A stretch of 64,000 nucleotides of DNA, taken from positions 675,373 to 739,372 of the forward strand of contig RPFO01000418.1 of assembly GCA_009746045.1 (NCBI GenBank), written 5' to 3'. Position numbers and translations under genes: made by a program. The stretch is from Mesostigma viride (lineage: Eukaryota; Streptophyta; Mesostigmatophyceae; Mesostigmatales; Mesostigmataceae). Numbering within the stretch: the stretch's first letter is position 1; every line of letters starts with the position of its first letter. The notes below the pieces were generated by a model that saw nothing but the letters and a program-made list of their open reading frames with translations, was not told the DNA's origin and did no database searches. Positions 5,292-35,902 of this stretch are shown one piece after another.

Positions 5292-6021
5292 TGAAGGTTT
5301 TTAAGAACGCGTATTCCCCGCATCTTACGTATCACACCACCGTCAACGAGCACGCCTGTTTCGCGACGAACCGCGTCACGCCGTTCTGTCATCCCAATAG
5401 CGTATGCGAACAGACGCACGCCTTGCGTTTCGATGACGAGAGTGATTCCCCATCCGTCCATGTCGAAATGGGTTATCATCCGTGTTGGAAACCGGTTCCG
5501 GAATCGGTTCACGATGTCGCAGCGTCGAATCGCCTGAAGCCAGCTCTTGCTTGTGTACACGTCGTCAAGAGTGCGTATAAGACGTTCTCTGTCCCAAGGT
5601 GTTGGCTCTTGCTCCAAGATCAATTCGTTAGATGATGGAGTCGCGTCACGAACGACGATGAATCCGTTGGCAGCCTCCATGACGAAAATGCCTTGACGAA
5701 CTCCGTCGTCTGATGGAGTTTTGATAACCTTGGTAACCGTGAAGGGACCTGCGTTCAAATCTTTTGATACCCGTTCTGCATCGACACGTCTTACTTCAGG
5801 CTGCTTGCCGTCTGGAATCGAGTAGCCTATGTAGGAAGACGGCGAGAGACACATCTTGTTTGCCATCGAGCTTTTTTGCAAACGTCGAGAACCGACTTGG
5901 TTTCCTGTTCCTCATGATTTTCTGGATCAGTTTCTGATTGTAGCGCATATTGAGAAGCAGCATACGCTACAAGTAGTCCAGCTCCTGTAGCAGCTGCTAT
6001 TTTGACCAATGTGTCTGACAT
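5249..6021 (-). CDS. Membrane-anchored hypothetical protein (frameshifted in this sequence)
   Basis: Two overlapping open frames, 5827-6021 and 5249-5866, join if one A is added to the AAAAAA run near 5877. The repaired gene has 258 codons. The N terminus carries one Ala-rich hydrophobic helix (residues ~8-24), then an acidic linker, then a soluble domain of ~200 residues with no motif I recognise. If the shift is real, the downstream frame could start at its own ATG (5866). The joined reading is preferred because the same defect recurs across the window. Confidence 0.5.
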
Positions 6022-6435
6022 GATATCTAATAAAATGCGATATTTTTAGGGTAGCACTGGGCTCGGAAACCAATGCGTATGATCCCCCGAACGTGATCAC
6101 ATGCAGCAAAGCGTGCATCGTGTTGCTATCTTTCGACAATCGAAAAATCCAATAAGCGAGCAGTGCGTACATTAAAGAAGCGTACATCATGATAACGCGC
6201 CACGAGATTATACCGCACACGATCCCCGCGTACGCTCCGTACAGAGCCATGTAGTTTGCGACGACCATATCGATCTTTCGCACGACGCGTTCGTTTAAAG
6301 AATGATTGATTTGAGACATCACTACAAGTGCAACGTATCCATACCTGAACGTGACCGTATGTGTACGGCCCACACATGAATCATAGGGATCGCGTACAAC
6401 ATAGACGAAACGTTCAAAATACTCATCGTTACCAT
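5927..6435 (-). CDS. Multi-span membrane protein (frameshifted in this sequence)
   Basis: A short frame starting with ATG at 6435 encodes a hydrophobic segment. It continues naturally into a second frame if one G is added to the GGG near 6368. The combined protein has about four hydrophobic helices: near the start, then around FRYGYVALVV, ALYGAYAGIVCGIISW, and a long stretch through MMYASLMYALLAYW. The last ~30 codons run over the start of the next gene and may reflect another missing base near 6050. Family unknown. Confidence 0.45.
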
Positions 6436-6459
6436 CTGCGCTACAAATCCAGAGAACGA

Positions 6460-6935
6460 CTAATTTTTTATAAACGGAAGCGCGTGGCCAGATGCCAGCA
6501 TCACTTCGTTTACAGTTACCCCGTCTTCAATGACGAGTGTCCCTAAAACGCGACCGAACGCGTCATTCTGATGGCAACGAAGTGTAATGATCTTCGTGTT
6601 TGTATCCACTAACTCTTGTATATCCTTGGGGCTGAACGTTGTGTCGGACGGGTCAAACTTGCAATCGGTCGCTAGCTTTATGAGTGCGTTGCGAGAAAGA
6701 CACGCTGATTTCTTGACCGTGTCTCGGTTCCAAGTAAAGGCTGGCGGGTGCATTTCCGGTGCGTTGATACCGGCTAGGCGGACGTTGAGTTTGACGCAAA
6801 GTTCCGTCCAAGGAACATTCGCGGCAACACGGACGGTATCGCCGTCATGACAGCTTACGACTTTACAGGCAGTTCGAGGCCATCTAATGATAAAAGTGGC
6901 AGATCGGAGTCTTTCATTGTTTTAAGAGAATCCAT
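6460..6935 (-). CDS. Staphylococcal-nuclease-like protein (frameshifted in this sequence)
   Basis: The C-terminal frame carries the SNase-fold signatures CHDGDTVRV (metal-binding strand), VRLAGINAPE (active-site Arg region) and DAFGRVLGTL followed by VNEVMLASGHA. These enzymes cleave DNA or RNA phosphodiester bonds with calcium. No ATG precedes the first signature in that frame. An ATG at 6935 in another frame connects to it if one A is added to the AAA near 6863, giving 159 codons. No signal peptide is seen, so an intracellular or virion nuclease is more likely than a secreted one. Confidence 0.7.
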
Positions 6936-6944
6936 TTCATTAAA

Positions 6945-8007
6945 TCATATATTACATAAAATCACTTCTTCTTCTGCCGAACCTTTACAGTTTTTTTTTC
7001 TAACTCTTCTTAGTCTTTTGCGTTTCTGTCCCGCCCCGTGGCCATCAGCATCAGATGGTTCAGGAGCGGAAGGCTCGGATGCAGCTGGAGGGGCGACACT
7101 GCCCGCAGTAGCAACGTGGATGGCGCAGGGGGGTGGGTCGCTCGATGTATCTTCGTTCGACGATGTAGACAGGTGGGCGGGTGTAGACGCGAGGAAAAAC
7201 GCCTCGAGATGGGGCGGAGGCTGCGTCCTTCATTCTTCGAATATGTGTTCTGCACTTGGACTTTGAAGAGACCGTCTTGCAGGACATTTTCCCGTCCTTT
7301 GTTGCGGCACAGCAGCGGATTTTCGACACCATTGTTACTACGAGGACCGAAAAAAACGACGATGTCGTTTCGTTGTCGTAGCTTTTTGCAGGCGTCGAGA
7401 GCCTCCATAGCTTTCAATACGACACAGAGGTCGCCTTTTTTGATCGCAAGATCTCGGCGGCGGATCGAGCCCTTGCCCATGCGATCATCTGGTTGTGAGG
7501 AGGCAGTGAGCGAAACCTCGTCTCTGCTTCGTGCAGAGTACCGATTTCCTTCCTCAACGCTCGACCCCAAACAGTGACGCACACGCTTAGGTTTGAAACA
7601 TCGATCAACTCTCGTGTCAAATCGGCGAATGTGTCGCCGAATACTTTCTGAGAGCTCGTTGGGGAAACGCCGCGTCCGTATACCCGCTGCACAACGTCGA
7701 AGAGCTGACTGGCACATTCAGAGGCGTCTTGGTTCTTGTCTGGATGCACGACGAGACAGAGGTCGAGATAGTGCTTCCGCTTGATCGGCTGTTTTCCGAT
7801 CTGGCTCTGCTCCTTTACGCGCTTGAAATCGCGCAACACGCACTCAGAAAGAGAAACGGAACCTTCCATTAAACAAGTCGCCAACAGCTCTTGTTCTGAA
7901 GCGGGCATTGATAGACATTCGCAGAAAATGTCTTGGCGTTGAAAGGAAGGAAGGTTGCCCATTTCCGTGGAAGGAGAGAGACTGTCTTCGAAGGATGACC
8001 TGGACAT
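6945..8007 (-). CDS. J-domain-like protein with basic tail (two frameshifts in this sequence)
   Basis: The 5' frame (7414-8007) contains KRKHYLDLCLVVHPDKNQDA, the HPD loop of a J domain (co-chaperone for Hsp70), with the following helix ending in VVQRVYG. The frame then stops, but reading continues naturally in a second frame if one A is added to AAAAAA near 7453. It continues in a third if one C is added near 7214. The result is 355 codons ending in a Pro/Ser-rich linker and a Lys/Arg-rich tail. An A-AAA-AAG heptamer at the first site could support programmed -1 frameshifting, but a missing base is simpler. Confidence 0.55.
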
Positions 8008-8125
8008 TTATCCGTCCTGACAAAATATCTGGAGCGCCGCGCCGTTGATGACGTTTGTAACCGGCTTTCGGTGATACTTTTGTCATCAAGTTTGCACGCG
8101 CCGTGGTAGAGTCGCCTCGACTACC

Positions 8126-8964
8126 ATGGCCTCCAGCACTGCCTTGGCCCTCGTGGGCGTCTCTACCGAACAATTCAAGGAGGTTTTCGCGCAAGGAAAA
8201 CTCGTTTCGAAACAACAGTTCGACGGAAAACTTCCCTGCCCTCTAAAGACGATGTCGAGGCAGACCAGTGCGAATTCTGCGGGATCTGACTGCAAAAAGT
8301 GCGGGACAGATCGTTCCGTTTATACCCGAGAAAGTCGTCAGCGGGAGGCGTTTGTTTCATCTGCTCAACTTCTTGCGGTTCATTCTCGAGAAATGGACGA
8401 CCAACATTCCCTCTTCGTTCGTCGATTTCGTCCACCAATCCGGAGGGACGATACTGAAGGTCGAAAAGACTGCGTACGCCTGCCCTGTGGTCTTGGCGAA
8501 TCTCGCTCGTGCGGTCTCGTGCCCCGTTGGGAGCGGGAAAAGCGTAGCGCGCTCGTGAACGAATGGTTCAAGTCTCACAGGATTTCCATCACCGTCTCTG
8601 TCGAGGAAATCGTCATCGACAACGCTCCTGTCGAGAAGACTGCCGTATTCAGGGAAATGACGAGACGGACGCTTTTCTTCGTTTCGAGATTCAGAGACTC
8701 GAGGACGTCTGGGCTAAATACAACGAGGCATTTCGCGACTACGAGAAAGATCACCGCGCAAGAGAGCAGTTTCAGAAACTCTGCGAGGATTCAAACCACG
8801 CCATGCGGCGTCTACCAGTCGCTAGGCACGAGCTGGATGTCGTTTCAACAGTCCTCGCAACCCCAGAGTTGCTCAGGAGTCTCGAGACCATCTCTATTCC
8901 TGCCGCTTTTGAATACGATCCTAGAATGGTAGTTTCTTCAAGCAAATCGCTGGGGCGTTGTTGA
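8126..8964 (+). CDS. Hypothetical Cys-containing protein (four frameshifts in this sequence)
   Basis: Three frames contribute in turn: MASSTALALVGVS at the start, a short piece with CEFCG, a long natural stretch from about 8280 (PFIPEKVV... to ARAVSCP), a piece around 8540-8655, and a Glu/Arg-rich helical C terminus from about 8660. Each switch is repaired by adding one C or G to a CCC or GGG run (near 8240, 8281, 8529 and 8655). That gives 281 codons. I see no known domain. Four shifts in 840 bp in the same direction point to sequence error or recent decay. Confidence 0.5.
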
Positions 8965-13917: not shown

Positions 13918-15054
13918 ATGGACAAGACCACAGTCGAGGCCAAGTACAAGGAGTGCATGAAGTGGTTCGATGATAACGAAGAAACCCACGGCAAGTTCCG
14001 GAACGACTTTATTCTAGACGTGATCCCAGTGTACATGCGGTACTGTCACTCTGTTCAGCGCAGAAAACCGGTGTCTTCCAAGTCGAGCGTCTGGACCAAA
14101 ACAAAGCACGGCGAGCTCGTCGAGGTCACATTCCTCGAAAACGAGTGGGCGACGATCAAACAACAGAACAAAGAGACGACGCTCCCCTTCTCTGAGGCAG
14201 TCGAGAAAGGGCTGGTCAGCGAGCGTCTGAAGTACCGTCCACCTGTATCGGACAACGGGGATTTGGTGACTCGAGACAAGGGCTATCTTTACGACGAGTT
14301 TATGCTGGCGCTGTCGAAGTGGAGTTTCCTTCCATCTAAGATCACCGCTTGCTCAACTCCAGTGATGCTCTATGATTTATACGGCTTCTGTCCCGAATGC
14401 AAGGTCAACATGGTCGAGGACGTCTCGAGAGGCGACTTGATGTGCAGCAAATGCGGTCTCGCGACTCCGGCTACTAACCAGGGCGTAGAGTCCGTGCCAT
14501 ACGGCACTCAAATCGACACCACAGACTACTGCTACAAGCGCATCAATCATTTCAACGAGTGCATCGCGCAATTCAATGCTCGCGAAAAATCGAGCATTCC
14601 TGACGACATTCTGGACTCGATTCGCCTGGACTTCAAGAAGATGCGGCTTAGCAACAAGAACGACATCACCGTCAAGCACGTCCGCAAAGTGCTCAGAAAG
14701 CTGCGACTTTCTAAATATTTCGAGCATTCTGTTCAGATCACCCACATCCTCCACGGATCCACGCCGCCTACTATGACAATGGAGCAAGAGGAAAAGCTGC
14801 GTAACATGTTCCGAATGATTCAGAAGCCTTTTGAGGATGTGTGTCCCAAGAACCGAAAGAACTTTTTGAATTACTCGTATACAATTCACAAAATGTGCCA
14901 GTTGTTGGGGTATGACAAATTCATTCAGTACTTTCCGCTGTTAAAGAGCAGAGAAAAGCTGTGGGGTCAGGATGTCATGTGGAAAGGCATCTGTAACAAG
15001 CTCAACTGGCAGTTCATCCCATCCACATTTATTCCTCCTGGTTCTCATCCATAG
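13918..15054 (+). CDS. VLTF3: VLTF3-like late transcription factor
   Basis: A 378-residue protein matching the poxvirus late transcription factor 3 family, a hallmark of Nucleocytoviricota. It carries a zinc ribbon CPECK...CSKCG at residues ~158-181. That is followed by the conserved helical region with YCYKRINHFNECIAQFNARE and KHVRKVLRKLRLSKYFEH. The C-terminal part ends in FRMIQKPFEDVCPKNRKNFLNYSY and a tail typical of the family. It activates late viral promoters with the viral RNA polymerase. The frame is intact. Its last 26 bp overlap the convergent PCNA gene. Confidence 0.93.
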   Translation: MDKTTVEAKYKECMKWFDDNEETHGKFRNDFILDVIPVYMRYCHSVQRRKPVSSKSSVWTKTKHGELVEVTFLENEWATIKQQNKETTLPFSEAVEKGLVSERLKYRPPVSDNGDLVTRDKGYLYDEFMLALSKWSFLPSKITACSTPVMLYDLYGFCPECKVNMVEDVSRGDLMCSKCGLATPATNQGVESVPYGTQIDTTDYCYKRINHFNECIAQFNAREKSSIPDDILDSIRLDFKKMRLSNKNDITVKHVRKVLRKLRLSKYFEHSVQITHILHGSTPPTMTMEQEEKLRNMFRMIQKPFEDVCPKNRKNFLNYSYTIHKMCQLLGYDKFIQYFPLLKSREKLWGQDVMWKGICNKLNWQFIPSTFIPPGSHP

Positions 15055-15769
15055 CTTCTCGCTCGCCTTCTCCTTCCTCGGTCTCTTCGCCGACCTGAGG
15101 TGCGAGTGCGAACATCAATGATCCGAGATCGCCTATCTTGTATTTAACTATCATCGGATATTCTGGCATAATAAAAATATCAACTGTGTTGCATAGCCCC
15201 GAAGCTTTGGAAAATGTGCACAAGTAGCGGACAGAGTAAGTCTCGTCGATCCTGTCTCCGTTGACTGCATTCAGCGTCATTTCGGGGTGATTCTTTCCGA
15301 TCTCCAGTTGGCAGTTTCCGATGTCGCCCGAACCGCTCAACACGATGTTATCTCCCCCGCATTCGATCCTGACCTTGTCGGCCACAATGGAAATGTCGCG
15401 ACAAATTTTCTGGAACTCGGAGCTGACCATGGTGATGCAAGTCATGTACTCCTTTTCGGGGATCTCGATCATTTCCTCGTCGATGTCCATAAGTTTCATC
15501 TCGTAAGTCCATCGGGTGTTCTTCACGCGGTTGAGAATTGTGATCTGCAAAACGTCCAGGTTAGCGTCGTCAAGACGAAGTTCCAACTCGTCGTTGACGG
15601 TGACGTTTTTAAGAAGCTTGAACAGGTTGACGAGGCTGATACCGATCGTGTACTGCTTGTTGCATTTGTATTCCTCGATCTTGGACGCCTCGAGAAACGC
15701 GTGAAAGAGTGCGCAGTGAGCGAGGTCGAAAGAAACAATCCGGACACCTTTCTGATCGAAAAAGAAGTT
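15029..15769 (-). pseudogene. PCNA: PCNA sliding clamp, C-terminal 246 codons (gene split by retrotransposon)
   Basis: Open minus-strand frame from the transposon junction to the stop at 15029. It shows the PCNA fold signatures: FDQKGVRIVSFDLAHCALFHAF, the ELRLDDANLDVLQI region, and IFIMPEYPMIVKYKIGDLGSLMFALAPQ at the C-terminal end. An acidic tail follows. PCNA is the trimeric DNA clamp for replication. The first Met of this piece (15586) is internal. The missing first 25 codons lie at 21269-21343, beyond a 5499-bp element. Phase matches exactly across the gap, so the gene was whole before insertion. As it stands it cannot make full-length PCNA unless the element is removed. Confidence 0.93.
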
Positions 15770-15905
15770 TCTATTAACCGTGGAACTCCAGGGTAACCAG
15801 ACTCTTTATTAAAACAATGAGTGGAGCACATACAAAAGGCAGGCCACATCCCGGCCGCCGATGCTCATGGGAACACTTATTGCTTGGCAAAGGCTAGCCT
15901 TACCC
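15770..15905 (-). repeat. Split direct repeat (short), outer copy, element 1
   Basis: A 136-bp repeat starting tctattaaccgtggaactcc on the plus strand, with its partner at 16365-16500 (offset 595). It forms the left terminus of the element against PCNA. Confidence 0.9.
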
Positions 15906-15930
15906 CCAAACACGCAGGGAGGGTGGGCGG

Positions 15931-16364
15931 GAAAAGAAAAGAGGCCGACCTTAGCTAGGTGGGTTTGTTTTTGTCCTTTTTTGCGTGTCATGCGGCCTTG
16001 GCCCGGACGGCATTTTTTCGCCACGCAAATGTTGCGTCTGAACAAATGACGCCATGTGGCGTTCTAATTGCCGGCAGCTTACGTAAGGCTGCCGGGGCTA
16101 TTAGGTCACATATTGCGTGAGAGAAAGAATCTAGATCTAGTTAATCACTACGCCATGAGCCAAGAAACCTAGACAGTGGCAGGTTTATATCTCAACGTAG
16201 CTCCTGCCACCTGGCCAAGAAAAAACTGGCCAAAGCTTTGGCCACGACTGATCCGGATCAGGCCGCACCGGCCTCAAAAGGTTTGTCACGTGAACCCAAT
16301 AACCTAGCTATAGCGGCTACCCTTCCATCTCACTATAAAGAAACTATGTTCAGAGAACCACGAT
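15931..16364 (-). repeat. Split direct repeat (long), inner copy, element 1
   Basis: A 434-bp noncoding repeat beginning gaaaagaaaagaggccgacc, with its partner at 20835-21268 (offset 4904). No gene is visible in it. It ends in accacgat, directly followed by the inner short repeat, and this junction reproduces the joined termini of a circular intermediate. Confidence 0.9.
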
Positions 16365-16500
16365 TCTATTAACCGTGGAACTCCAGGGTAACCAGACTCT
16401 TTATTAAAACAATGAGTGGAGCACATACAAAAGGCAGGCCACATCCCGGCCGCCGATGCTCATGGGAACACTTATTGCTTGGCAAAGGCTAGCCTTACCC
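16365..16500 (-). repeat. Split direct repeat (short), inner copy, element 1
   Basis: Second copy of the 136-bp repeat at 15770-15905; it adjoins the 3' untranslated end of the pol ORF. Confidence 0.9.
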
Positions 16501-16572
16501 TTATATCCCTCCCTGGCGATCCATGCCAGGGGCAAAGAACCTAGCATAATGACAGAGAAATGAACAACCAAA

Positions 16573-19500
16573 TTAGGTGGAGGGCAATTTCAAAATAGCC
16601 CGCCAGGCCCGAGGGGGGCAGGCGGCCATGGCCCGAAGAATAACCTCAGGCAGCTGCACCTCCAAACTGCGGTGCAAGCCCACATAATGGGCAACCGTGG
16701 AGCTGCTAAGCCAGCGCCCCCGGCCCTGGATGTCCCCCATGCTGCGACCCGCGAGGAAATCGTGAGTGGCACCTCCATGCCGCAGCCCGTGAATGGTGAA
16801 AATCTGGGCGACCCCCAAGGCCTGACTCGCAGCCTGCCAAATGCGCCGGAATTGCGGGTAGGTGAAAGGGAACACGGCCTCCCAAGCGTGCTTACCCGCG
16901 ATGCAGTGACGGAGGATGGTTTCAGACATCACATCTTCTACCACCACTGACTGAGTCTTGCCCTTAGAGGTCTTGGTAGACCTCAGCAGTAGGGCGCCCC
17001 GTTGAGCCGGCCCAAGCCGAACGTCAGGCTGGAGGCGCACATGGCCAACACGGAGGTTCAGCGCCTCCGAGATTCGCAGGTAATGGCGGAACACGATGAC
17101 AACCAGCAGGCCCGCAAGGCGCTGACCTTGCATGACCATCGTGCTGGCAAGTGCAAACGCCGCCTCCCATGGAATGGGAGGAGGGGCACGGGGGGGCACA
17201 AGTGTTTTCCACCCAGCGAGGACGCCACGGGCCAAGTCCCACCGCTTCACCATACCGGGATAATAAAGTTGCAACCCCATCAAGGCATTGACACACACTT
17301 GGCGGCTGTACCCCCGAAAATGAGCCCAGGCGACATACGCACAAAATGTCTCCTCAAGGGTGTCAGCTCGTGACGATGACCCGTCCGCCCGCCCACCAGC
17401 CTCCCACCAAGTCAAGAGGGAATCAAGACCACGACGGTAGGCCAGCAAAGTAGCCGGCTTTACTTTCCCCTCTAGCAATGGAAGGTAGCTAACAGGTGCA
17501 GGGGGCCCCGGGTTAGGATGGATGCCTTCCGCGGTCAGGTCGCGCACCCAGCCTGCCAAGAAAGTCGCCATGGATTGGCCGCGAGAAACGCCATCGGCTG
17601 GTTGAAGTGCACTCGGCGTCCACACCCACTGGGAACGACTCCCCGTGGCGAGGGTCAGCGCGCACAAGCGGCGGCACTGCTTGTTGAGCTTGTGGGATGA
17701 GGACCGCCCCTTAGCCAAGCAGCCCAACGCCGCGGTGGAGTCCACCAACCTCACCACCCGCTTGCCTCGGTTTGCCAAGCTGCGCGCACTCCTCTCCACG
17801 CCCTTCACTGCAGCCCGCACCTCCTTCTCGTTGATGTGCATCCCCGGATCCCGCCAACGACTCCGGACCCCAACCCGCCATTGCTGGCTAGTGATTGCTT
17901 GTTGCGCCCGCGCGCTCAGTGGCCTAGGGCCAGCGTAGGCCACCTCACTTGGTATGAGCAAAGTCGGGTACCCCCGCACCTCTCGTGCCCTCGCCAGCTC
18001 CGTCACATCGCCCGGCTCCATGGTTGCGTACACGACACCTTGCCCGTAGGTGGACGCGTCAGATGCAACCACCTCACGGGCCAAAGGTGCGCTTCGGTCA
18101 ACCCTTAGCATGGGAGCCAAGGCCAGGGCACACTCTAACTCCTCCCGCACCCCGGCCCACAGCACCCAGGATCGCTGCCCCCACCCTTGCAGGCTGATGA
18201 ATTTGAAACATTGCTGCCAAATGGACAAGCAGCTGCGGCTTAACATCTGCAGCCACAACCACCGCCCCAAGACGGCAGCCAGCCCCTCGGCCGTAGCTCG
18301 GCCTCGAGTGAGTATAGCCTGCGTGTGGGCGATCACAAGGTTGAGCTGCTTGACCGTTGGTTCCAGCACGCCGTTCCGTCGGTGCACCACCCCTAGGGCT
18401 TCTAGCTCGTCCCCTTCCAGGCTCGCCATCTTAGTCTTCTCCTTAGACGGCACAAGGTTGTTAGGGAGGTAGCCTTCCTCAATAGCGCGCGTGATGAGCT
18501 GGTTCACCGCCTCGCAGGTCCGCCCGTTGCTGGCCACCAAGTCATCAATAGTGATGGACAGCATGGGGGCAGGGGGGTTTTCCAGGTCAATCTGAAGCTC
18601 CCCGGCGCGCTCCTCCTTGTACTCGATGGCCAAGCGCAGTGGCTGGCCACACTCGTCGCGCACCAAGGTGAGCTCACCTGCGCTTGAGAGGTAGTTGACC
18701 TGGCGCCTCGGATCCAGGGCACCGGTCATGTAGAGCACCATCTCATGGATGGCCTCCCCCAGCGCCACCGCATGGGAATGTCCCATGGCCAGCACCTTGA
18801 GCACGGGCCACACCTTCCGCCTGGGCCCTGCCAGACCTACGCTAGTCGACCACACACTAGGAAGCCCTTGGTAGTCCCACCACCACTCGGGCACCTCGAT
18901 GGAATAGTAGTATGACACGAGGTCGCTCTTGGCGCAGTAGCACCAGCCTTTGATGTAGACCTCCACGAGGATGCCCAGGTGGGGTAGCAGGATCTTGGGG
19001 GGGTCCACCCACAGCAGGTTGCCCAGCTTCCTGTTGACGATGAACCGAAGCTCACCCACCCCCTTGGCCACTCCAAAGCAGCCATCCACCCACTTGGGCC
19101 GCCTCTCCCGGAACGCCACCATGCCCACGCCCGCTGCCCGGCTCATGAGCTTGCCCCATTCAGCCATGGAGCATCCCCGGCTGGGCTTGGGCACATTCCA
19201 ATACTTTGCGCTCGCCACGACCGCTGGCTTGATGCAGTTCTCTTCGCTGGCATATATCTCCCGCCAGCTCGGCCGCATAGCCAACAGGTCGAGCAGCCGT
19301 GCCTTCCCCGCCACCTCCGCCTTTGGTAGACTCACCGCGTCCGCGCGCAGTTGTTCATACTTATTCTGCTTCCCATATATTGCATCAGCACCTTCTTGCT
19401 CCTGGCCTGTCGCAACGCCCCCTACGCGGCGACTGTGCCAGGTGCAGTGCCTCTTGACCCTCGCAAGGGCCTCCTCCCTCCCCTTAGAGCACGCCCCTCT

Positions 19501-20016
19501 AGGGTTAGGAGGAGGGTCTTGCCCCCCTCCCCACAGCCAATTAAGCCAACGCACTACCTTGCATTGCAGTGTGTACTCGCGGTGGCGGCGCGTGGCACGC
19601 TGTCGCCGGCGTGCCGATCTCACCCTGCCCCACGCGGTGTACGCTGGCCTAAGTGGGTATGGCAGCGGGAAAAGGGAGCGGTCCCGCTGGGATTCTATTT
19701 CCCTACTTGTTGAGCCTTGCTGAGCTTGTCCAAGAGGATGGCAGTTTGGAGAGCTGCCTTGACAGCCGGGGTGGCTGACAGTGCAGCCTCCTCCCCCAAT
19801 GGCAGGAGGTGGCTGGCCACCTTCCACCCCCCCCCTCCTTGCCCTTCCACCTGCAGCAAGGCCGCCACCACCCTCATTAGGTACTCCATGCCCACAAGCT
19901 CCCCGGCTGCTGAGCCCAGCTCCTTGAGAAGGGTGTCCATGGCCAATGCAATGTTCATGACAATTTTCCTGTTCTCCATGTTCCGCCAATTTCCAGGCTT
20001 TACCGTCATGACCCAC
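16573..20016 (-). CDS. DIRS-type pol: reverse transcriptase, RNase H, tyrosine recombinase
   Basis: A 1147-codon open frame. RT region: PPKILLPHLGI, the SYYY segment, and SITIDDLVASN near residue ~490 in place of the usual YxDD. RNase H: VVASDASTYGQG (~655), INEKEVRAA, LVDSTAALG and QPADGVSR. A 2A-like motif EGIHPNPGP lies near ~834. Tyrosine recombinase: R in HYLRISEAL (~983), HGLRHGG (~1077), and Y in VAHYVGLH (~1112), the R-H-R-Y catalytic set. The first ~110 codons overlap the Gag-like ORF in another frame and may not be translated; no ATG exists at the homologue's likely start, so expression by frameshifting from Gag is possible. Confidence 0.9.
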   Translation of the reverse strand: MGHDGKAWKLAEHGEQENCHEHCIGHGHPSQGAGLSSRGACGHGVPNEGGGGLAAGGRARRGGVEGGQPPPAIGGGGCTVSHPGCQGSSPNCHPLGQAQQGSTSREIESQRDRSLFPLPYPLRPAYTAWGRVRSARRRQRATRRHREYTLQCKVVRWLNWLWGGGQDPPPNPRGACSKGREEALARVKRHCTWHSRRVGGVATGQEQEGADAIYGKQNKYEQLRADAVSLPKAEVAGKARLLDLLAMRPSWREIYASEENCIKPAVVASAKYWNVPKPSRGCSMAEWGKLMSRAAGVGMVAFRERRPKWVDGCFGVAKGVGELRFIVNRKLGNLLWVDPPKILLPHLGILVEVYIKGWCYCAKSDLVSYYYSIEVPEWWWDYQGLPSVWSTSVGLAGPRRKVWPVLKVLAMGHSHAVALGEAIHEMVLYMTGALDPRRQVNYLSSAGELTLVRDECGQPLRLAIEYKEERAGELQIDLENPPAPMLSITIDDLVASNGRTCEAVNQLITRAIEEGYLPNNLVPSKEKTKMASLEGDELEALGVVHRRNGVLEPTVKQLNLVIAHTQAILTRGRATAEGLAAVLGRWLWLQMLSRSCLSIWQQCFKFISLQGWGQRSWVLWAGVREELECALALAPMLRVDRSAPLAREVVASDASTYGQGVVYATMEPGDVTELARAREVRGYPTLLIPSEVAYAGPRPLSARAQQAITSQQWRVGVRSRWRDPGMHINEKEVRAAVKGVERSARSLANRGKRVVRLVDSTAALGCLAKGRSSSHKLNKQCRRLCALTLATGSRSQWVWTPSALQPADGVSRGQSMATFLAGWVRDLTAEGIHPNPGPPAPVSYLPLLEGKVKPATLLAYRRGLDSLLTWWEAGGRADGSSSRADTLEETFCAYVAWAHFRGYSRQVCVNALMGLQLYYPGMVKRWDLARGVLAGWKTLVPPRAPPPIPWEAAFALASTMVMQGQRLAGLLVVIVFRHYLRISEALNLRVGHVRLQPDVRLGPAQRGALLLRSTKTSKGKTQSVVVEDVMSETILRHCIAGKHAWEAVFPFTYPQFRRIWQAASQALGVAQIFTIHGLRHGGATHDFLAGRSMGDIQGRGRWLSSSTVAHYVGLHRSLEVQLPEVILRAMAACPPRAWRAILKLPST

Positions 20017-20747
20017 GACCGGATTCCCATCCCATTGTCGCTGGCGTCCTCCAACACCCCCGGCAGCACCCGCTCCGAAACCCGATATTTCACGCTCTTG
20101 GCTCGGCTTGGCAGCGCCACCCCTTTCGAGGCCTTGAAGTGGCTTCCCGCCCCCTCCATTCCTCCCAGCGCTGCCTTCAAACCTTGCATGAATTTCTCGG
20201 CTGCGACCTCCCCCTCCTCGTCCTCCTCGTCGTCCTGATTTTCGGTTTCCGGAGGTGCCCCAACGAATGTCGCCAACCTCGCCCTCATTTCCTTTCCGAC
20301 AGCCCCCCCACCTGCCGAAACCTTGGCCGCGCCTTTCGGCTTGGCCATTTTTCGCTGCGCAGGTGTCGTTGGTGGCAGCGCCTGATCCTCCTCGTCCGCC
20401 GCGAGATCTGCCACGGCCAGCAGTTTTGCCACCAACGTTCCGTTTGGGTCACGTGCGTCCAACACGTCGCCAACATCAACGTGATCGGCCAGCAACTGCA
20501 CGACAGACTTCAGCTGGCTCGAGCTCCACGAGCTGGCGTCCGTCACCCAGTCCTCGGCACCGAAGACCTGCTCGACTGCCCCCACCGCCTCTGCGGGGCT
20601 GATGCACTTGGCGAGCAGAGTGGCGAGCTGCTTCTTTTTGGCGCTGAAGGCGACTGGCGCGTGACTGGCGGCAGCAGCCCGCGGTGTGGGCGTCCCGTCC
20701 TCCCCGCGCGCTGCCTGCCCTCCTGTAGCTTTGCGCCCCTTCGGCAT
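19695..20747 (-). CDS. DIRS-type Gag-like protein, element 1
   Basis: A 350-residue protein from an ATG at 20747. It has a basic N terminus (MPKGRKATGGQ), an Asp/Glu-rich middle (ENQDDEEDEEGE) and a helical C-terminal part. The C-terminal half aligns by eye with the corresponding ORF of element 2 (shared SERVLPGVLEDASDNG-like and RKIVMNIALAMDTLLKELG segments). No zinc knuckle is seen, which is usual for DIRS Gags. It overlaps the pol frame by 322 bp. Confidence 0.8.
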   Translation of the reverse strand: MPKGRKATGGQAARGEDGTPTPRAAAASHAPVAFSAKKKQLATLLAKCISPAEAVGAVEQVFGAEDWVTDASSWSSSQLKSVVQLLADHVDVGDVLDARDPNGTLVAKLLAVADLAADEEDQALPPTTPAQRKMAKPKGAAKVSAGGGAVGKEMRARLATFVGAPPETENQDDEEDEEGEVAAEKFMQGLKAALGGMEGAGSHFKASKGVALPSRAKSVKYRVSERVLPGVLEDASDNGMGIRSWVMTVKPGNWRNMENRKIVMNIALAMDTLLKELGSAAGELVGMEYLMRVVAALLQVEGQGGGGWKVASHLLPLGEEAALSATPAVKAALQTAILLDKLSKAQQVGK

Positions 20748-20834
20748 TGCTGCTCAGGGCCAAAAATGGCTCCGACAGTACAGGTTCGTCAAACCAGAGG
20801 TTCGTTTCCCCTGGCTTGCTGTCGCCGCCCTCGT

Positions 20835-21268
20835 GAAAAGAAAAGAGGCCGACCTTAGCTAGGTGGGTTTGTTTTTGTCCTTTTTTGCGTGTCATGCGGC
20901 CTTGGCCCGGACGGCATTTTTTCGCCACGCAAATGTTGCGTCTGAACAAATGACGCCATGTGGCGTTCTAATTGCCGGCAGCTTACGTAAGGCTGCCGGG
21001 GCTATTAGGTCACATATTGCGTGAGAGAAAGAATCTAGATCTAGTTAATCACTACGCCATGAGCCAAGAAACCTAGACAGTGGCAGGTTTATATCTCAAC
21101 GTAGCTCCTGCCACCTGGCCAAGAAAAAACTGGCCAAAGCTTTGGCCACGACTGATCCGGATCAGGCCGCACCGGCCTCAAAAGGTTTGTCACGTGAACC
21201 CAATAACCTAGCTATAGCGGCTACCCTTCCATCTCACTATAAAGAAACTATGTTCAGAGAACCACGAT
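20835..21268 (-). repeat. Split direct repeat (long), outer copy, element 1
   Basis: Right terminus of element 1, a 434-bp partner of 15931-16364. It is noncoding and is expected to hold the element promoter upstream of the Gag ORF. The next base on the plus strand belongs to PCNA codon 25. Confidence 0.9.
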
Positions 21269-21343
21269 CACATCGTTCGTGAGTTCCTTCAAAACCTCCA
21301 CGAGCATCTTGATGGAAGAACCTTGCACGGTTCGGAATTCCAT
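21269..21343 (-). pseudogene. PCNA: PCNA, first 25 codons (gene split by retrotransposon)
   Basis: ATG at 21343 followed by 25 in-phase codons (MEFRTVQGSSIKML...) that match the first strand and helix of PCNA and end exactly at the element border. The rest of the gene is at 15029-15769. A CTTTATAGGG sequence lies upstream as a possible promoter. Without the element the gene would have 272 codons, the usual PCNA length. Confidence 0.88.
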
Positions 21344-22032: not shown

Positions 22033-23994
22033 ATGGTTGCCGTCCCTCAAGATTTACTAGAGCGGATGGTTCGCATGTTTCCGGATCAGTCAACACTCAA
22101 ATCTGAACCTGCCAATCCGGAAACGCATCCGGATACGATTATAAAGAACGCGTATGAGCGAAATATTTTGCCAGCATACGCGATCGAAGGTAATGGACTG
22201 TACGGTAACAAAAACGGTCACGTGACTGAAGAAGGGGACACGTGGAAGTCTATCTCAGAAAAATTCGGGGTATCTGTGGATGACCTTATTATCGCAAATC
22301 CTCATCTTTCTCCCCTCGTTTTGGCGCCGAATAGTTTTATTCTTCTACCCAAGCGGTTCACGTTTCCTGACTTTGTCGAAGGCGTCATTCATCAGGACAA
22401 CAACATGGACTTGTGGTCCGGAGTCGGCGAAGATAAAGGAGAAGACCCTGGTGGAAAAGGGATGGGAATGATAGAGGCACTTAAATACGCTTGGAACAAC
22501 CCTAGACAAGCCGCGCAATCTGCAGTCGGTATCGCTAGACAGACAGCGAACAACCCATGGAAAGCTGCCACGCTTGGAATGACGGGTGCGGCAACGTTTC
22601 TTAATCCCATGAACGCTGCTAATCTCGTCGCAGTTGCCAACGCAAATCGAAACAACGACTGGAAAACTTCGCTCGCTTACGCTATTCCCAGTCTTCTTGG
22701 CGGAGTGGGTGCCGCCGCAGGTTTCATACCGGGTATGAAGGGTGTTGGGAACGCTTTGACGTACGCTTCTGGTCTTTCAAACACATCCATGGGCAGGTAC
22801 GGAACAATGGCCGCTTTGGACGCGGGTCACGCGTACTCCAACTCGAGAGCAGGACAAGGTCTACGTGCTGCTGGCATGTCCCTCGCGAACAACGCTGCCG
22901 GAGCTGCGTTGCAGATGGCCGCTACGGATGAACGAATCGGATCAATGCTGAACACGTTCGGCATAACGAATGTGTCGCCCTCGAAGCTGTCTGCATACAT
23001 CAATATGTACGGACCCGCTGTTGTTGAACGATTCTTGCCACGCGACATGCATCAAATGGACAAGCGCGATGCCATGACAAAGCTAATGACAGCATTCACA
23101 AAGCGGTCTTCTTTAATGGAATACATGAACCCTGACATGGCTGTCGAGTCTCTGGGCGATGCGTGGAACTTGTACGGTCTCGGAAACGGGCCGACTCAGC
23201 GGCAACAACGTGCATTTGATGAAAGGTTGAAAAACCAGGTACAAGACCAAGGTGTAGTTGACGTCGATTTTCAAGAACGCAATACACCAGAAAATCTGAG
23301 AGACCTTGTAATCGCTGCTAAAAAATATAGGGTTCCTGGAGGGACCATCGATCAAATCATGAGCGGTAGTGGTGATAAAGCGTACAATCTAACGCAAGCA
23401 ATTGATCGACGGTATGCAATTGATGACTTGAAAGAGGACTGGGCACGCGTGTCCGATCCAGTACACGACCATCCGGATAACGTCAAACGACTAGTCGATG
23501 AAGCTAGAAGTTATGGGATTTCAGAGAAAGATATTAATGACGCTCTTCAGATCCAGACCGGTGGACAAGGTGGTAACCTCACCAGCTTGATCGATGAAAA
23601 TTATAGAGGCCCGGGACAATCTCCTTATGACCCTCTGAATCTTAATAATGGATTCACAGAGTTGCCATGGGACGGAACCGATCTTCTTACACAACTCGAA
23701 AAAGACCGGCTGTTCCGCAAGAGGGACGGGAAGTTATACGAAATGTACCGTGACATGACTAACAAACTCGGACCGCAAGATGCTAGAAAGCTCGATGCTT
23801 GGTATGACAAGCTTATAGACAGTGACAAAAACACGTGGTCGTCTATGATGACGGAGCCTGGCAACTTCATTGGTCGACAGAATCGGGCGTTTGAAGCAAA
23901 TCGAAACATTAACAATTACAAGGGTTCTGTAGATCCCGCGTATTATCGAAAGCTCCGTGACCTTATTGCACAGAGAGGACAATTCCGTCGCTAG
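22033..23994 (+). CDS. LysM-domain protein, probable virion component
   Basis: A 653-residue protein. Residues ~62-107 match a LysM domain (HVTEEGDTWKSISEKFGVSV, then NPHLSPL and an LLP end), a fold that binds N-acetylglucosamine polymers such as chitin or peptidoglycan. Residues ~150-300 are Ala/Gly/Asn-rich with long weakly hydrophobic stretches. The C-terminal half is charged, with repeated short helical motifs (KRLVDEARSYGISEKDINDAL and RDLVIAAKKYRVPGGTIDQIM share a pattern). It may attach to a polysaccharide wall or act inside the particle; this is inference. Its stop overlaps the MCP stop on the other strand by 4 bp (ctag). Confidence 0.75.
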   Translation: MVAVPQDLLERMVRMFPDQSTLKSEPANPETHPDTIIKNAYERNILPAYAIEGNGLYGNKNGHVTEEGDTWKSISEKFGVSVDDLIIANPHLSPLVLAPNSFILLPKRFTFPDFVEGVIHQDNNMDLWSGVGEDKGEDPGGKGMGMIEALKYAWNNPRQAAQSAVGIARQTANNPWKAATLGMTGAATFLNPMNAANLVAVANANRNNDWKTSLAYAIPSLLGGVGAAAGFIPGMKGVGNALTYASGLSNTSMGRYGTMAALDAGHAYSNSRAGQGLRAAGMSLANNAAGAALQMAATDERIGSMLNTFGITNVSPSKLSAYINMYGPAVVERFLPRDMHQMDKRDAMTKLMTAFTKRSSLMEYMNPDMAVESLGDAWNLYGLGNGPTQRQQRAFDERLKNQVQDQGVVDVDFQERNTPENLRDLVIAAKKYRVPGGTIDQIMSGSGDKAYNLTQAIDRRYAIDDLKEDWARVSDPVHDHPDNVKRLVDEARSYGISEKDINDALQIQTGGQGGNLTSLIDENYRGPGQSPYDPLNLNNGFTELPWDGTDLLTQLEKDRLFRKRDGKLYEMYRDMTNKLGPQDARKLDAWYDKLIDSDKNTWSSMMTEPGNFIGRQNRAFEANRNINNYKGSVDPAYYRKLRDLIAQRGQFRR

Positions 23995-25613
23995 TTTAAG
24001 AATGTCTTTCGAGCGTGTCCGTTTGAAATCTCAAAAATGTTCAAAACGCGAGCGTACACATGAACGCGCCCGTTCGACATGATTGGACCCTCTCTAACTC
24101 CTGGCAAGTTTTTAAAAAACAAACGAAGGGTCGCCCTGTCCACTTTGCTGAAGTTAATGCTTCCCGTGGGCTGGTCTTCTTCAGGCTTTAGCGAAAACGG
24201 AATAAAGTACACCATCTCAAAGTTGTTTTCGACAGGTATGCGTCGATGGAACTCGGCAGGCAAAAAAAAGTTGAACCAAAGAGGGTCCCTCGGAGGTGAG
24301 AACAGATCGCCGTTATTAAGAGTCAGCGTCGCGCGGTCAAAAAAAGCATTGTCAATGTGCACCATCTGCTTTCCGTACGTGCGCACAAAATAACGACCAC
24401 GATCGATCATGTCGTTTTTCGCAAATGGACGATTTCCTTCAAAGTTCCAGTATTCTTCGTTTGCGTTCTTTTCATCGCTGCCTTCTAGACGACGATGGTC
24501 GGCCCTGAAGAAAAATATGAGCTCTTTACACGCTCCCGAAATCGGGTCTAACGAAAGGTCCTTGATTAGCTTGTCTCGTTTGGTGAGCGGGAACTCGAGG
24601 TGCTTTGTCTCCGTTATCAGGTACGAATGCGTGCCTTTGTTGAATTGAGCTCGTTCGAAATCGTCCAAAAGTATGTAGCGCGTGACGAGGCGTACTGCGC
24701 GCAGGTCACCTCCTAATTCTGATCGCATCAACTGTTCGCCAGTGTCTGTAAGGCCAGAGTTCACGTCGCCCTCAAAAATCGTCACGGGTTTCCGCACAAA
24801 CCGCTCTGGATCGACTGAAGGGGCAGTCTTGAACGGGATTTTCTCCATGTAGCTCAAATAGTCTTGACGGAGCGGCTTTGCACTCATCTTTAACACGACT
24901 TCCACGTCGTGATACTGAATCGCAGCAATCGGTAGTGCGTATCCCGCCTCTTTGTTGAAAAAGAAACGCAGAGGGACGTAAACATGTTGATCGTGCATGG
25001 TTCCAATGTTACCGACGCCTCCGTGCTCTGAAGGCAGACCCTGTATCACGCTCAAATCTGAATTACGTGTCACGCAATCCCAAATGCGTAGAAAATCGCC
25101 TGTGTGGCTGTCAATCATGTTTCCGCCGACCCACAATTCGACCGTGTTTGTCAACACGTAACCAAGGTAGTCGATCCAAGCGGGTTGGAATGACTCGTGT
25201 GTGATCCCATCGTAATCCGCATCCGCTAACAACGGATAATTAGACGCCTTGAACGCCGCGAGTGTCCTCGTAGTCACAGTTTCGAGGCCTGGATTCGTCG
25301 GAGTGACTCCGTCCTCATCCACAGCGTTCTTGTCTACGTGAACTTGCATAACCCCGTAGTTAAGTTTTGTGATATTGAAGTAAAGATACATCTGCGTCAC
25401 TAAATCGCCAATCCTCGGTATCTTGAACTTAACTTGGCCTCCGTACATGGGAACCACGTCGGGCAAAATTTCGACATCGGTCCAGCTAAAATTTGTGTGA
25501 CGGGAAAACACGGACTTGAAAAAAGTCTTCTCTGGATCGACTGTGAGGAAGGTGTCAAAAGCCCCCTTGGCTTTCAGCCAAGTCAGATGGGCCGTAATGT
25601 TTTGAGAAGCCAT
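23991..25613 (-). CDS. MCP: Major capsid protein 1 (double jelly roll)
   Basis: 540 residues, intact. It begins with the NCLDV capsid pattern: TFLTVDPEKTFFKSVFSRHTNFSW, then the IPRIGDLVTQMYLYF strand. The middle holds LWVGGNMIDSHTGDFLRIWD. The second jelly roll has the RYILLDDFERAQF and FNFFLPAEFHRRI motifs and ends with PTGSINFSKVDRATLRLFF and VHVYARVLNIFEI. Capsomers of such proteins form the icosahedral shell. The usual C-terminal GxGGKRFAS-type end of the other three copies is replaced by NGHARKTFLN, so this is the most divergent copy. Confidence 0.95.
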   Translation of the reverse strand: MASQNITAHLTWLKAKGAFDTFLTVDPEKTFFKSVFSRHTNFSWTDVEILPDVVPMYGGQVKFKIPRIGDLVTQMYLYFNITKLNYGVMQVHVDKNAVDEDGVTPTNPGLETVTTRTLAAFKASNYPLLADADYDGITHESFQPAWIDYLGYVLTNTVELWVGGNMIDSHTGDFLRIWDCVTRNSDLSVIQGLPSEHGGVGNIGTMHDQHVYVPLRFFFNKEAGYALPIAAIQYHDVEVVLKMSAKPLRQDYLSYMEKIPFKTAPSVDPERFVRKPVTIFEGDVNSGLTDTGEQLMRSELGGDLRAVRLVTRYILLDDFERAQFNKGTHSYLITETKHLEFPLTKRDKLIKDLSLDPISGACKELIFFFRADHRRLEGSDEKNANEEYWNFEGNRPFAKNDMIDRGRYFVRTYGKQMVHIDNAFFDRATLTLNNGDLFSPPRDPLWFNFFLPAEFHRRIPVENNFEMVYFIPFSLKPEEDQPTGSINFSKVDRATLRLFFKNLPGVREGPIMSNGRVHVYARVLNIFEISNGHARKTFLN

Positions 25614-25704: not shown

Positions 25705-25764
25705 TCTATTAACCACATCCTTACCCATGGGAACACTTTATGTCCAAAAAGGCTAGCCTTACCC
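25705..25764 (-). repeat. Split direct repeat (short), outer copy, element 2, internally deleted
   Basis: It starts tctattaacc like the inner copy at 26178-26310, then jumps directly to atccttacccatgggaac. About 73 bp present in the inner copy are missing. Confidence 0.8.
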
Positions 25765-25797
25765 CCAAACAGGCAACACACAGGGAGGGCGGGTGGG

Positions 25798-26177
25798 AAA
25801 ACAAAAGAGACCGCCATGAGCTAGGTGAGCAAGCTTTTATCGTGTTTCAAGGCCAACGGCTCTCTACCAACGGCCAGATCCGGCAACGGCCTCTAAACAG
25901 TTTTAGCCGTCAAGTTTTACTTCAGATATTGCCTGTTGCAAACCCGTCCGCAATCACAGATCTGCTAGGAGAACCTAGACGCAAAAATCCGTCGTCAAGG
26001 TACTCAGCACACCGTCAAGGTATGGGCCGCAACAATTAGGCCATATCTTCCGTAATACTCGTACACTAGAAGCCTAATCAACCTTATTACGATCACATCA
26101 CCCAGCTCTATTTCACCTAGCATCAGCGGCTCCCCTTCCGTATCACTATAAAGAAACTATGTTCAGAGAACCCCGAT
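25798..26177 (-). repeat. Split direct repeat (long), inner copy, element 2
   Basis: A 380-bp noncoding repeat beginning aaaacaaaagagaccgcc, with its partner at 30641-31020 (offset 4843). It ends gaaccccgat, joined to the inner short repeat. Confidence 0.88.
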
Positions 26178-26310
26178 TCTATTAACCGTGGAACTCCAGG
26201 GTAACCAGACTCTTTATTAAAACAATAAGTAGAGCACATCGGGAAGTGGCCCTCAACTGGCCATCCTTACCCATGGGAACACTTTATGTCCAAAAAGGCT
26301 AGCCTTACCC
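26178..26310 (-). repeat. Split direct repeat (short), inner copy, element 2
   Basis: Full-length (133 bp) version of the short repeat. Its first ~50 bases are nearly the same as the short repeat of element 1, showing that the two families share a terminal recognition sequence. Confidence 0.85.
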
Positions 26311-26386
26311 TTACATCCCTCCCTGGCGACCCAAGCCAGGGGCAAAACAAAAACCGGTGGACGCATAAGACAAGAATGAAGGGAAC

Positions 26387-29300
26387 TTAAGAGGAAGGCA
26401 GAGAAAAGACGCTCCGCCAAATGCGCGGGGGGCAGGCGGCGATAGCCCGAACCAGGGCGTCAGGAAGGGTGAGGGCCAAGCTCCGGTGCAATCCCACATA
26501 GTGGGCGACAGTTTTGCTGCTGCGCCAGCGACCCCGATGCTGAATATCAGCCATGCTGCGCTGCCGCAAAAAATCATAGGTAGCCCCCCCATGCCGCAGC
26601 CCGTGAATGGTAAACACCGTGTCGACCCCCAAAGCTTGCGTGGCCTGATGCCAAACCCGGCTGAACTGGGCATAATCGTAAGGGAACACCCGCTCCCAGG
26701 CCGCCTTGCCACGCATACAAGCCCGCAAGAGGGTCTCAGTCATGACATCCTCGATCACCACAGACTGCACCTCCCCCTTAGCCGTCTTAGCTGACATCAA
26801 CAACAAGGCGCCCCGCTGCGAACCCCGCAACCGAACATCAGGCTGCAAGCGCACATGGCCGACCAACAGGTTGAGCGCCTCCGATACCCGCAGGTATTGT
26901 TGGAAAATAACGATGACCATCATAGCCGCACGAGGCTGCCGCTGGAGCACCATAGTACAAGCAAGCGCAAACGCAGCCTCCCATGGAATGGGGGGGGGGC
27001 ACGAGGGGGTGCCAACGTGCGCCAGCCAGCCAAAACACTTCGTGCCAAGGCCCAATCCCGCACCTCCCGGGGGAAGTACAAATTCAGGCCCATAAGCGCA
27101 TTGACACACAACTGGCGGCTGTAACACCGTGAGTGCGCCCAAGCGACATACTCGCAATAGTATTCCTCTATCGTCAAGCCGCGCAACAAGCTGCCAACCC
27201 GACCCCGCCGGCTCGCCCACCATGCGAAAAAGGACCTAAGACCCCGATGGTAAACCATCAAAGTAGCCGGCTTCACCTTGCCCTCAAGAAGGGTCAAGTA
27301 GCTAGCGCCAAGCCGAGGCCCGGGATTGGGATGAACACCCTCGCGAGTCAAATCGCGGACCCACCCGGCCACCGAGGCAGCCATGGAAAGCCCCCGCGAA
27401 GGCCCATCCGCAGGCTGAAGCTCACTTGGCGTCCAGACCCATTGTGAGCGGCTGCCGGTGACCAACGTAAGAGCGCACAACCGGCGGCATTGCTTGTTTA
27501 ACCGGTAAGAAGAGGAACGCCCTTTAGCCAAGCAGCCCAAAGCGGCAGTGGAGTCCACTAACCTCACCACCCGCTTACCCCATGTTCCGAGGTTCCGGGC
27601 CGAGCGCTCCACCCCCTTCACAGCGGCCCGCACTTCCTTCTCGTTGATGTGCATGGTCGAATCGCGCCAGCGACTCTTGATCCCGACGCGCCATCGCCCG
27701 TGGATGATGGCTTTTTCCGCGGCCTTGGTCAAGGGTCTAGGCCCGGCATACATGGCCTCACCTGGGGTGAGGAGGGTTGGGTAACCCCGCACCTCCCGGG
27801 CCCGAGCTAATTCCGTCACCTCAGCTGGGGCCATCTCAGCGTAGACAACCCCCTGCCCAAAACTAGACGCATCCGAGGCCACCACCACCGGAGCCAGGGC
27901 AGCCCCCCGGTCCACACGGAGCATGGGGGCCAACGCCATGGCACACTCGAGCTCATCGCGCACACCTTGCCACAAAGGTCGCGTTCGCTGGCCCCACCCC
28001 TTGAGGTTGATGAACTTAAAACTCTGCTGCCATATGGACAAGCAAGTGCGGCTGAGCATCTGCAGCCACACCCACCGGCCCACGACGGCCGCCAGCGCCT
28101 CAGCGGTAGCGCGTCCCCTCTCGAGGAGTACACGAGTGTGCGCAACCACAAGGGTGAGCTGCTTAGCTGTCGGCTCCAACACCCCATCCCGCCGGTGAAC
28201 AACACCCAGAGCTTCTAGCTCGTCCTCCCCCTCCGGGCTAGCCATGATCGTCTTGTCCTTGGAGGGCACAAGGTTGTTAGGCGCGTACCCGTCTTCAATA
28301 GCACTCGCGATTAAGCGATTCACCGCCTCGCACGTGCGCCCATTGCTGACCACCAGGTCATCAATAGTGATGGATACCATAGGGGCAGGGGGGTCCTCAA
28401 GGTCGATTTGCATCTCCCTCGTGCTCTCCTCCTTGTACTCGATGGCTAGGGCGGTTGGGTTACCCCATGCATTCCGAAGCACGGTCAGCTCCCCTACACT
28501 TGTGAGGCGGTTCACCTGCCGTCTAGGATCCAAAGCGCCCGTGGCATAGAGGACCATCTCATGGATGGCTTCCCCTAGCGCTACAGCGTGGGAGTGCCCC
28601 ATGGCCAGCACTTTCAGCACTGGCCACACCCTCCTCCGCCGCCCCGGCAGCCCGACATCGGTGGACCACACATCAGGTAGCCCTTGATAATCCCACCACC
28701 ACTCCGGCACTTGGATGGTATAGTAATACGAGACCAGATCGCTCTTGGCCGTGTAGCACCGACCCTTGATATAGACCTCCGAGTATATGCCCAGGTGGGG
28801 TAACACCGTCTTAGGGGGGTCCACCCACAGTGCGTTCCCCAACTTCTTATTCACAATGAGCCTTAACTCCCCCACTCCTTTGGCCACCCCAAAACATCCG
28901 TCTACCCACTTTGGCCGCGTCTCTCGGAACTCCACCATCCCCACGTCCGCTGCCCTCCCCATCAACTTGCCCCACTCCGCCATGGTGCACCCTCGGCTGG
29001 GGGCAGGTACATTCCAATACCTCGCACTGGCAGCCACCTCCGGCTTGATGCAGTTGGCTTCGCTCGCGTACACCTCTCGCCAACTAGGTCGTAGCGCCAG
29101 CAAATCCAGCAGCTTCGCCTTTCCTGCCACCTCGCGCTTCGGCAGACTCACCCGCTCCGCCACAAGTTGTTCATACTTATTACATTTCCCATAGATTAGA
29201 TCACTTCCTTCTGCGGGGCCTGTCGCAACGCCGGTTACGCGGCGACTGTACCACTCGCAGTGCTTCTTGACCCTTTTCAGGGCCTCCGCCGTTCCTCTGG

Positions 29301-29463
29301 AGCACGCGCCTCCAGATTTAGGCGGAGGGTCTGCCCCCCCGTGCCATAGCCAATTCAACCACGTAATCACCTTGTGTTGTAGAGTGAAGGTCCGGCGGCG
29401 GCGAGTTGCACGCTGGCGTCTGCGTGCTGACCTCACTCTCCCCCACGTAGTGCTTAGAGGCAT
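26387..29463 (-). CDS. DIRS-type pol, element 2 (frameshifted in this sequence)
   Basis: The frame 26920-29901 carries RT (SITIDDLVVSN), RNase H (VVASDASSFGQG, INEKEVRAA, LVDSTAALG, QPADGPSR) and a 2A-like EGVHPNPGP near 27325. It is cut within a run of ten C at about 26996. The continuation 26387-27223 in the next frame holds the tyrosine recombinase (YLRVSEAL, HGLRHGG, VAHYVGLH). Adding one C restores the same APPPIPWEAAFALA segment seen intact in element 1. I place the start at the ATG at 29463 (MPLSTTWGRV), downstream of the Gag stop; the frame is open farther upstream. Confidence 0.85.
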
Positions 29464-31020: not shown

Positions 31021-31026
31021 TTATCC

Positions 31027-35896: not shown

Positions 35897-35902
35897 AACA
35901 CG

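Follow-up and report, generated by a model that had tools for sequence, protein, structure and literature searches.

Mesostigma viride is a streptophyte alga at the base of the plant lineage. Here we analyse a 64,000-nucleotide stretch of its genome assembly (hereafter the window), which lies at positions 675373-739372 of the 2,957,239-bp scaffold C1535 and contains a viral PCNA gene interrupted by a retrotransposon of the tyrosine-recombinase type. The break follows codon 25 and neither adds nor removes a base; the features around it are as follows (ORF, open reading frame; RT, reverse transcriptase):

15029-15769, minus strand: remainder of PCNA, residue 26 to stop (Pfam PCNA_N/PCNA_C, frame, alignment to relatives)
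15770-21268 (or 15769-21267), minus strand: Ngaro-type tyrosine-recombinase retrotransposon, 5499 bp (repeats, empty sites in 7 of 7 copies, end base)
15769-15905, minus strand: repeat B2, outer, identical to B1 (0 mismatches)
15931-16364, minus strand: repeat A2, inner, identical to A1 (0 mismatches)
16364-16500, minus strand: repeat B1, inner, 137 bp (sequence comparison)
16573-20016, minus strand: ORF2, 1,147 amino acids, RT/RNase H region followed by tyrosine recombinase (Pfam, alignment, profiles)
19695-20747, minus strand: ORF1, 350 amino acids, gag-like by position only, without Pfam match (ORF list, Pfam)
20835-21268, minus strand: repeat A1, outer, 434 bp (sequence comparison, genome-wide copies)
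21269-21343, minus strand: PCNA N-terminal 25 codons, 75 nt, in frame (aligned to residues 1-25 of 12 of 12 gene models with both pieces)

The interrupted PCNA gene

The first-pass annotation of this DNA had the PCNA frame breaking after codon 25 at 21269 and resuming in phase at 15769, which is confirmed by the frame and by alignment. The C-terminal piece (15769-15029, minus strand) comprises 741 nt in frame with a single stop, at its end, and matches Pfam PCNA_C at 2.1e-26 and PCNA_N at 8.7e-13, the latter from profile position 31. Thirteen M. viride gene models for PCNA were found—12 carrying both pieces and one, P0018, without the N-terminal piece—and the two pieces were each aligned to them separately, never as a joined sequence; in all 12 models with both, the N-terminal piece ends at residue 25 and the C-terminal piece starts at residue 26. 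The C-terminal piece matches 13 clusters labelled as M. viride models (45 member sequences), of which P0017 also contains another source. Since 5.5 kb are inserted after codon 25, the PCNA of the window cannot be read as one protein. From this sequence we infer loss of function for the window copy, and we likewise infer an essential role for PCNA and an inability of this viral copy to replicate alone.

The inserted element

Because one T is common to both ends of the insert, its limits can be drawn at 15770-21268 or at 15769-21267. On the coding (minus) strand the elements are ordered A1-ORF1-ORF2-B1-A2-B2, and the GC content is 62-63% in the ORFs versus about 47-50% in the surroundings. Residues 971-1113 of ORF2 match Phage_integrase in Pfam above the cut-off (7.2e-07), and its alignment contains visible HGLRHG and HY motifs, which we take to be those of a tyrosine recombinase; this domain and the split direct repeats uphold the earlier identification of the insert as a tyrosine-recombinase retroelement. 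The RT is indicated indirectly: ORF2 aligns to P0004, a bearer of PF00078, RVT_1 is found in two of five aligned members of the ORF2 family, and the ORF2 profile matches an RT/RNase H chain weakly (E 0.0021). RNase H was judged from the alignment alone. The first-pass annotation had described a PAT/Ngaro repeat layout, of which the layout and the Ngaro side stand and the PAT side falls: Pfam gives no methyltransferase domain in the element at E up to 1, and for this reason we call it Ngaro-type and not PAT. This follows the published structural definitions of these groups (PMC4157794). Membership of the PAT, Toc3 and Kangaroo groups was considered and rejected, the methyltransferase domain that defines them being the feature not found.

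Empty sites in near-identical copies

The M. viride assembly searched consists of 2,243 contigs totalling 439,911,974 bases. Searched at the DNA level with the PCNA C-terminal piece, it gave 109 candidates; of the 40 that were scored, 8 have 99-100% identity (the window included) and 32 have 74-76%. In the seven sister copies (on C1668, C446, C272, C113, C2135, C1478 and C392) we located the flanks of the insertion, taken as the last 20 bases up to 15769 and the first 20 from 21269 on, and in 7 of 7 they adjoin each other, with 0 bases between them. The empty-site check suggested by the first-pass annotation, done here on assembled copies, thus finds every near-identical sister uninterrupted, and both of its associated claims—that no base was gained or lost and that the target was not duplicated—hold in all seven. 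Tyrosine-recombinase retroelements integrate without target-site duplication. Over 1,920 bp on one side of the insertion, the sisters show 0-9 substitutions and 0-2 gap columns relative to the window; over 1,482 bp on the other side they show 1-4 and 0-1, respectively. The C-terminal piece reads through at 100% amino-acid identity in five of the seven, and two of the seven PCNA copies apparently have a frame change of their own. Three sisters lie deep inside scaffolds of megabase size (2.1, 5.9 and 6.2 Mb) and four on contigs of 32-121 kb. The locus is a natural experiment: near-identical copies of one viral gene, seven empty and one holding a tyrosine-recombinase retrotransposon, occur within a single genome, and a scarless insertion can be seen base by base.

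The element family across the genome

The A repeat yielded 1,015 first-look candidates; 40 were scored and all 40 are about 100% identical, 25 of them on contigs without a PCNA match. The right-hand ends were compared for 12 of the 40, and in 12 of 12 they stop at one and the same element base, after which the sequences differ. In all 12 of these other insertions (L051-L062) an A or a T comes first in the flank beyond the element, and in the window a C; a target preference for A/T is possible. Two of the 12 flanks, L052 and L059, have a repeated stretch in common nearby. The best of seven matches to ORF2 is P0001, an M. viride gene model from the EukProt set that is 100% identical in both exons to a second element of the same type in the window (element 2, 25706-31021). 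These copies indicate that the Ngaro-type family is a young, high-copy and active-looking family of the algal host.

The viral block and its other insertions

The surrounding part of the window contains the following genes and elements (LTR, long terminal repeat):

13918-15054, plus strand: VLTF3, viral late transcription factor, convergent with PCNA and overlapping its end (PF04947, 4.2e-46)
23991-25613, minus strand: major capsid protein gene (homology)
25706-31021, minus strand: element 2, same type as the PCNA insert and ~73% identical to it, between two capsid genes (repeats, empty sites)
31027-32706, plus strand: major capsid protein gene (homology)
32748-35960, plus strand: capsid protein, long form, 1070 amino acids (homology)
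35903-37279, plus strand: major capsid protein gene (matches to solved capsid proteins, that of PBCV-1, 1m4x, among them)
45477-53332, minus strand: element 3, LTR retrotransposon inside an ORF of the viral block (LTRs, 5-bp duplication)

The four capsid genes, VLTF3 and PCNA are hallmarks of the Nucleocytoviricota, and by this gene content the window is identified as part of an endogenous giant virus. Its viral ORFs are long and mostly open. The long capsid protein has its Capsid_N and Capsid_NCLDV domains far apart and adjoins two ordinary capsid genes. The best relative of VLTF3, among the best 120 of 1,391 matches, is 48% identical and lies on a contig of 4,120 bp from the source 'lgn'; none of these 120 is from the EukProt M. 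viride models, though sister copies would be expected there, and perhaps the gene finder dropped VLTF3 because of its overlap with the end of PCNA. Among IMG/VR viral contigs, no relative was confirmed with the PCNA C-terminal piece, a capsid protein, a putative ATPase or the VLTF3 alignment.

The block appears to extend well beyond the window. A sequence from position 607 kb of C1535 recurs at 98-100% identity in 11 other places, and the distance from this marker to the sister PCNA is 57-75 kb on C446, C113 and C1478, against 83 kb on C1535. Judged by these two markers, the viral block covers at least ~130 kb of C1535, with its order kept on other scaffolds. ORF density on C1535 is 0.13-0.33 at 300, 400, 500 and 550 kb and 0.73-0.74 at 600 and 665 kb, so that the shift falls between 550 and 600 kb. 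The position of the window within a 2.96-Mb scaffold, and of sisters within C446, C113 and C1668, agrees with the earlier proposal that viral DNA is resident in a eukaryotic genome.

Element 2 stands 5 bases ahead of a capsid ATG, has 3 bases common to its ends and is missing from all five sister copies that were fetched (of seven). Of its B repeats, the inner one measures 134 bp, and the outer one matches it identically over 49 bp only, as if internally deleted. Element 3 has identical 616-bp LTRs (AGTT...AACT) and a 5-bp target duplication, GTAAT, on both sides; the flanking ORF pieces, 44602-45471 and 53333-53806, are in phase when one GTAAT is counted. The empty site of element 3 was sought at four sister places, which gave N only (L063), sequence corresponding to window 39323-41117 (L064), a relative of element 2 (L065) and no match at E 1e-20 (L066). 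The relative of element 2 lies in the C1668 sister (L065, C1668:849001-850700), about 12 kb further on and 100% identical over 1,700 bp, and the C113 sister (L064), judged by distances, has ~5 kb extra in the part that corresponds to 32.5-39 kb of the window. The sister viral copies thus seem to carry private insertions. With three retroelement insertions in the window, host retrotransposons are fragmenting this stretch of endogenous giant-virus DNA, and the case shows how host mobile elements dismantle a resident giant virus.

Interpretation and alternative explanations

Almost certainly, a host Ngaro-type element inserted seamlessly into the PCNA gene of an endogenous giant virus in M. viride. 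The insertion would postdate the separation of the near-identical viral copies. The host element would have been transcribed, reverse-transcribed and circularised, and its recombinase would then have exchanged the junction of this circle with a short target, containing T, at the border of PCNA codons 25 and 26; the B-A junction of the circle would be the one preserved as the inner junction at 16364. Such an exchange would leave no staggered cut to fill and hence neither duplication nor loss. The circular intermediate and the action of the recombinase on a T-rich target are what we assume for the insert from its element class. The bases shared by the ends (1 at PCNA, 3 at element 2) fit an exchange over a short overlap.

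Several observations weigh against this interpretation. Pfam RVT_1 gives no direct match to ORF2 of the window, and a structure prediction for the RT/tyrosine recombinase ORF reached a mean pLDDT of only 40 and was discarded. The end comparison of the other insertions covers right-hand ends only, both junctions between PCNA and the element rest on assembly sequence and not on raw reads, and four of the seven empty sisters are on contigs of just 32-121 kb. Nor is ORF density low throughout the rest of C1535, where it reaches 0.68 at 100 kb, 0.55 at 1,000 kb and 0.50 at both 450 and 900 kb. The first-pass annotation had suggested a search for host genes on the rest of the contig, which came out negative: no tRNA was found in 17 samples of C1535 and no Rfam match in 13, Pfam gave only weak RVT_1 and zinc-finger matches for 10 ORFs, and none of 122 kinase matches genome-wide is on C1535, some being on C446, C113 and C1668. 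None of these scans revealed a certain host gene on C1535. No exact host-virus boundary was located.

How the near-identical copies arose is a separate matter, and here segmental duplication of one integrated virus, as opposed to repeated integration, is a serious contender that we place only a little short of even. Any two of the copies are separated by 0-10 substitutions in 1.9 kb, and the two markers are similarly spaced (57-83 kb) on four scaffolds, as duplication would predict; the other lineages at 74-76% identity (32 of the 40 scored), on the other hand, would need several entries anyway.

That the window instead represents the genome of a free-living virus, which gained host retrotransposons during infection, is very improbable. 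The long and mostly open viral ORFs would suit it, as would the many related copies, including four of the seven nearest, on contigs of ~20-121 kb, for which DNA of a virus in the culture is conceivable. Against this, the window occupies 675-739 kb of a 2.96-Mb scaffold, three near-identical sisters are buried deep in scaffolds of 2.1, 5.9 and 6.2 Mb, and three retroelements in 64 kb, one of them splitting PCNA, would be counter-selected in a replicating virus.

We give even less credence to an assembly chimera, in which repeat-rich reads were misjoined at PCNA. A high-copy family with identical repeats is indeed where assemblers err, and C1535 has gaps or masked N stretches. Both joins, however, fall exactly at the element ends, the A end stopping at an identical base in all 12 other insertions compared, the viral flanks meet in all seven sisters with nothing between them, and phase is kept on both sides, which together make a random misjoin implausible.

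Tyrosine-recombinase reactions are reversible in principle, and the insertion is exact and in phase, but removal of the insert from the transcript by splicing or from the DNA by excision, with PCNA still made, is hardly credible, as the sole two exact removals would run AT..GA or TC..AA (minus strand) and not GT-AG, GC-AG or AT-AC, model P0018, probably from the window locus, begins inside the C-terminal piece without the N-terminal one, and the uninterrupted model P0008 mismatches the window by a frame change within the C-terminal piece and therefore comes from another copy.

Comparison with known systems

The virophages of Cafeteria are ~20 kb in size. In Cafeteria burkhardae, Ngaro retrotransposons occur inside endogenous virophages, the EMALEs, and the layout given for Ngaro is A1-[ORFs]-B1A2B2; of 20 insertions that could be analysed, 7 interrupt viral genes, primase/helicase and pPolB among them (PMC8547959). 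The Cafeteria elements resemble the M. viride element in this layout, in being GC-rich and ~6 kb long within viral DNA of lower GC, and in having a gag-like ORF1, RT/RNase H and a tyrosine recombinase (PMC8547959). They differ in that the target is a virophage, whereas in the green alga it is giant-virus DNA extending over at least ~130 kb, and in that RT/RNase H and tyrosine recombinase share one open frame in M. viride, unlike in Cafeteria. Some Cafeteria Ngaro types are also described there as strongly preferring viral DNA, whereas in M. viride 38 A repeats were scored outside the window and 2 of them lie within 15 kb of a PCNA match.

A parallel for the viral side is Euglena gracilis, in which giant endogenous viral elements have been invaded by transposons (PMC12455990). 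That case is like ours in its giant-virus DNA within an algal genome, its near-identical copies and its erosion by host mobile elements; a text search of PMC12455990 gave none of the words 'tyrosine', 'PCNA' and 'Mesostigma', and M. viride differs in having precise empty sites within the same genome. The PAT, Toc3 and Kangaroo elements of green algae, as presented in PMC4157794, share with our element the split direct repeats, the tyrosine recombinase and algal hosts, but are defined by a methyltransferase domain, which was not found in the M. viride element. Transposon invasion of endogenous viruses is thus already known from Euglena and Cafeteria; its scale here, with 111 PCNA_N matches in one alga, we did not find in print among the papers listed.

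The stock of giant-virus copies in M. viride

The 111 PCNA_N profile matches are spread over 106 contigs, and 31 of these matches lie more than 300 kb into their contig. A single match, at 170.7 bits, is probably the alga's own PCNA, all others scoring 80 or less. The first-pass annotation had proposed that another PCNA or a wild-type genome complements the split copy; candidates for such a role would be the seven near-identical copies that lack the insert, two of them apparently with a frame change, and the many other viral PCNA genes. The matches often form groups of identical score, and the lineages read differ in GC. Together these matches point to endogenous giant viruses of several lineages, in unusually high copy number.

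We offer a further reading tentatively, and consider it rather doubtful as a whole: the genome would hold roughly a hundred endogenous copies of giant viruses, some near-identical and spread over several large scaffolds, a giant-virus lineage would therefore have been amplified very recently or still be active, and copies broken by host retrotransposons would survive alongside uninterrupted ones able to provide the proteins that they lack, a situation we liken to that of defective and intact proviruses. Among the papers listed, judged by title and the beginning of the abstract, we found no report of giant-virus copies in Mesostigma, though papers elsewhere may exist, and the two published M. 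viride genome papers have 'virus' or 'viral' only in methods or references. M. viride thus seems to be an alga with a large, young stock of endogenous giant viruses, of which we found no report.

Further features of the window and scaffold

A NifS-like cysteine desulfurase gene without introns is situated inside the viral block at 451-1569. The 1,188-amino-acid ORF at 55459-59025 matches IS630/DDE_3 transposases and is much longer than the 299-position model, and 62222-63339 contains diverged tandem repeats of 65-68% identity. Downstream on the scaffold (L019, C1535:770001-780000), a 324-amino-acid ORF with the same first 60 residues occurs twice, inverted and ~1 kb apart, at 5990-6964 and 7929-8903.

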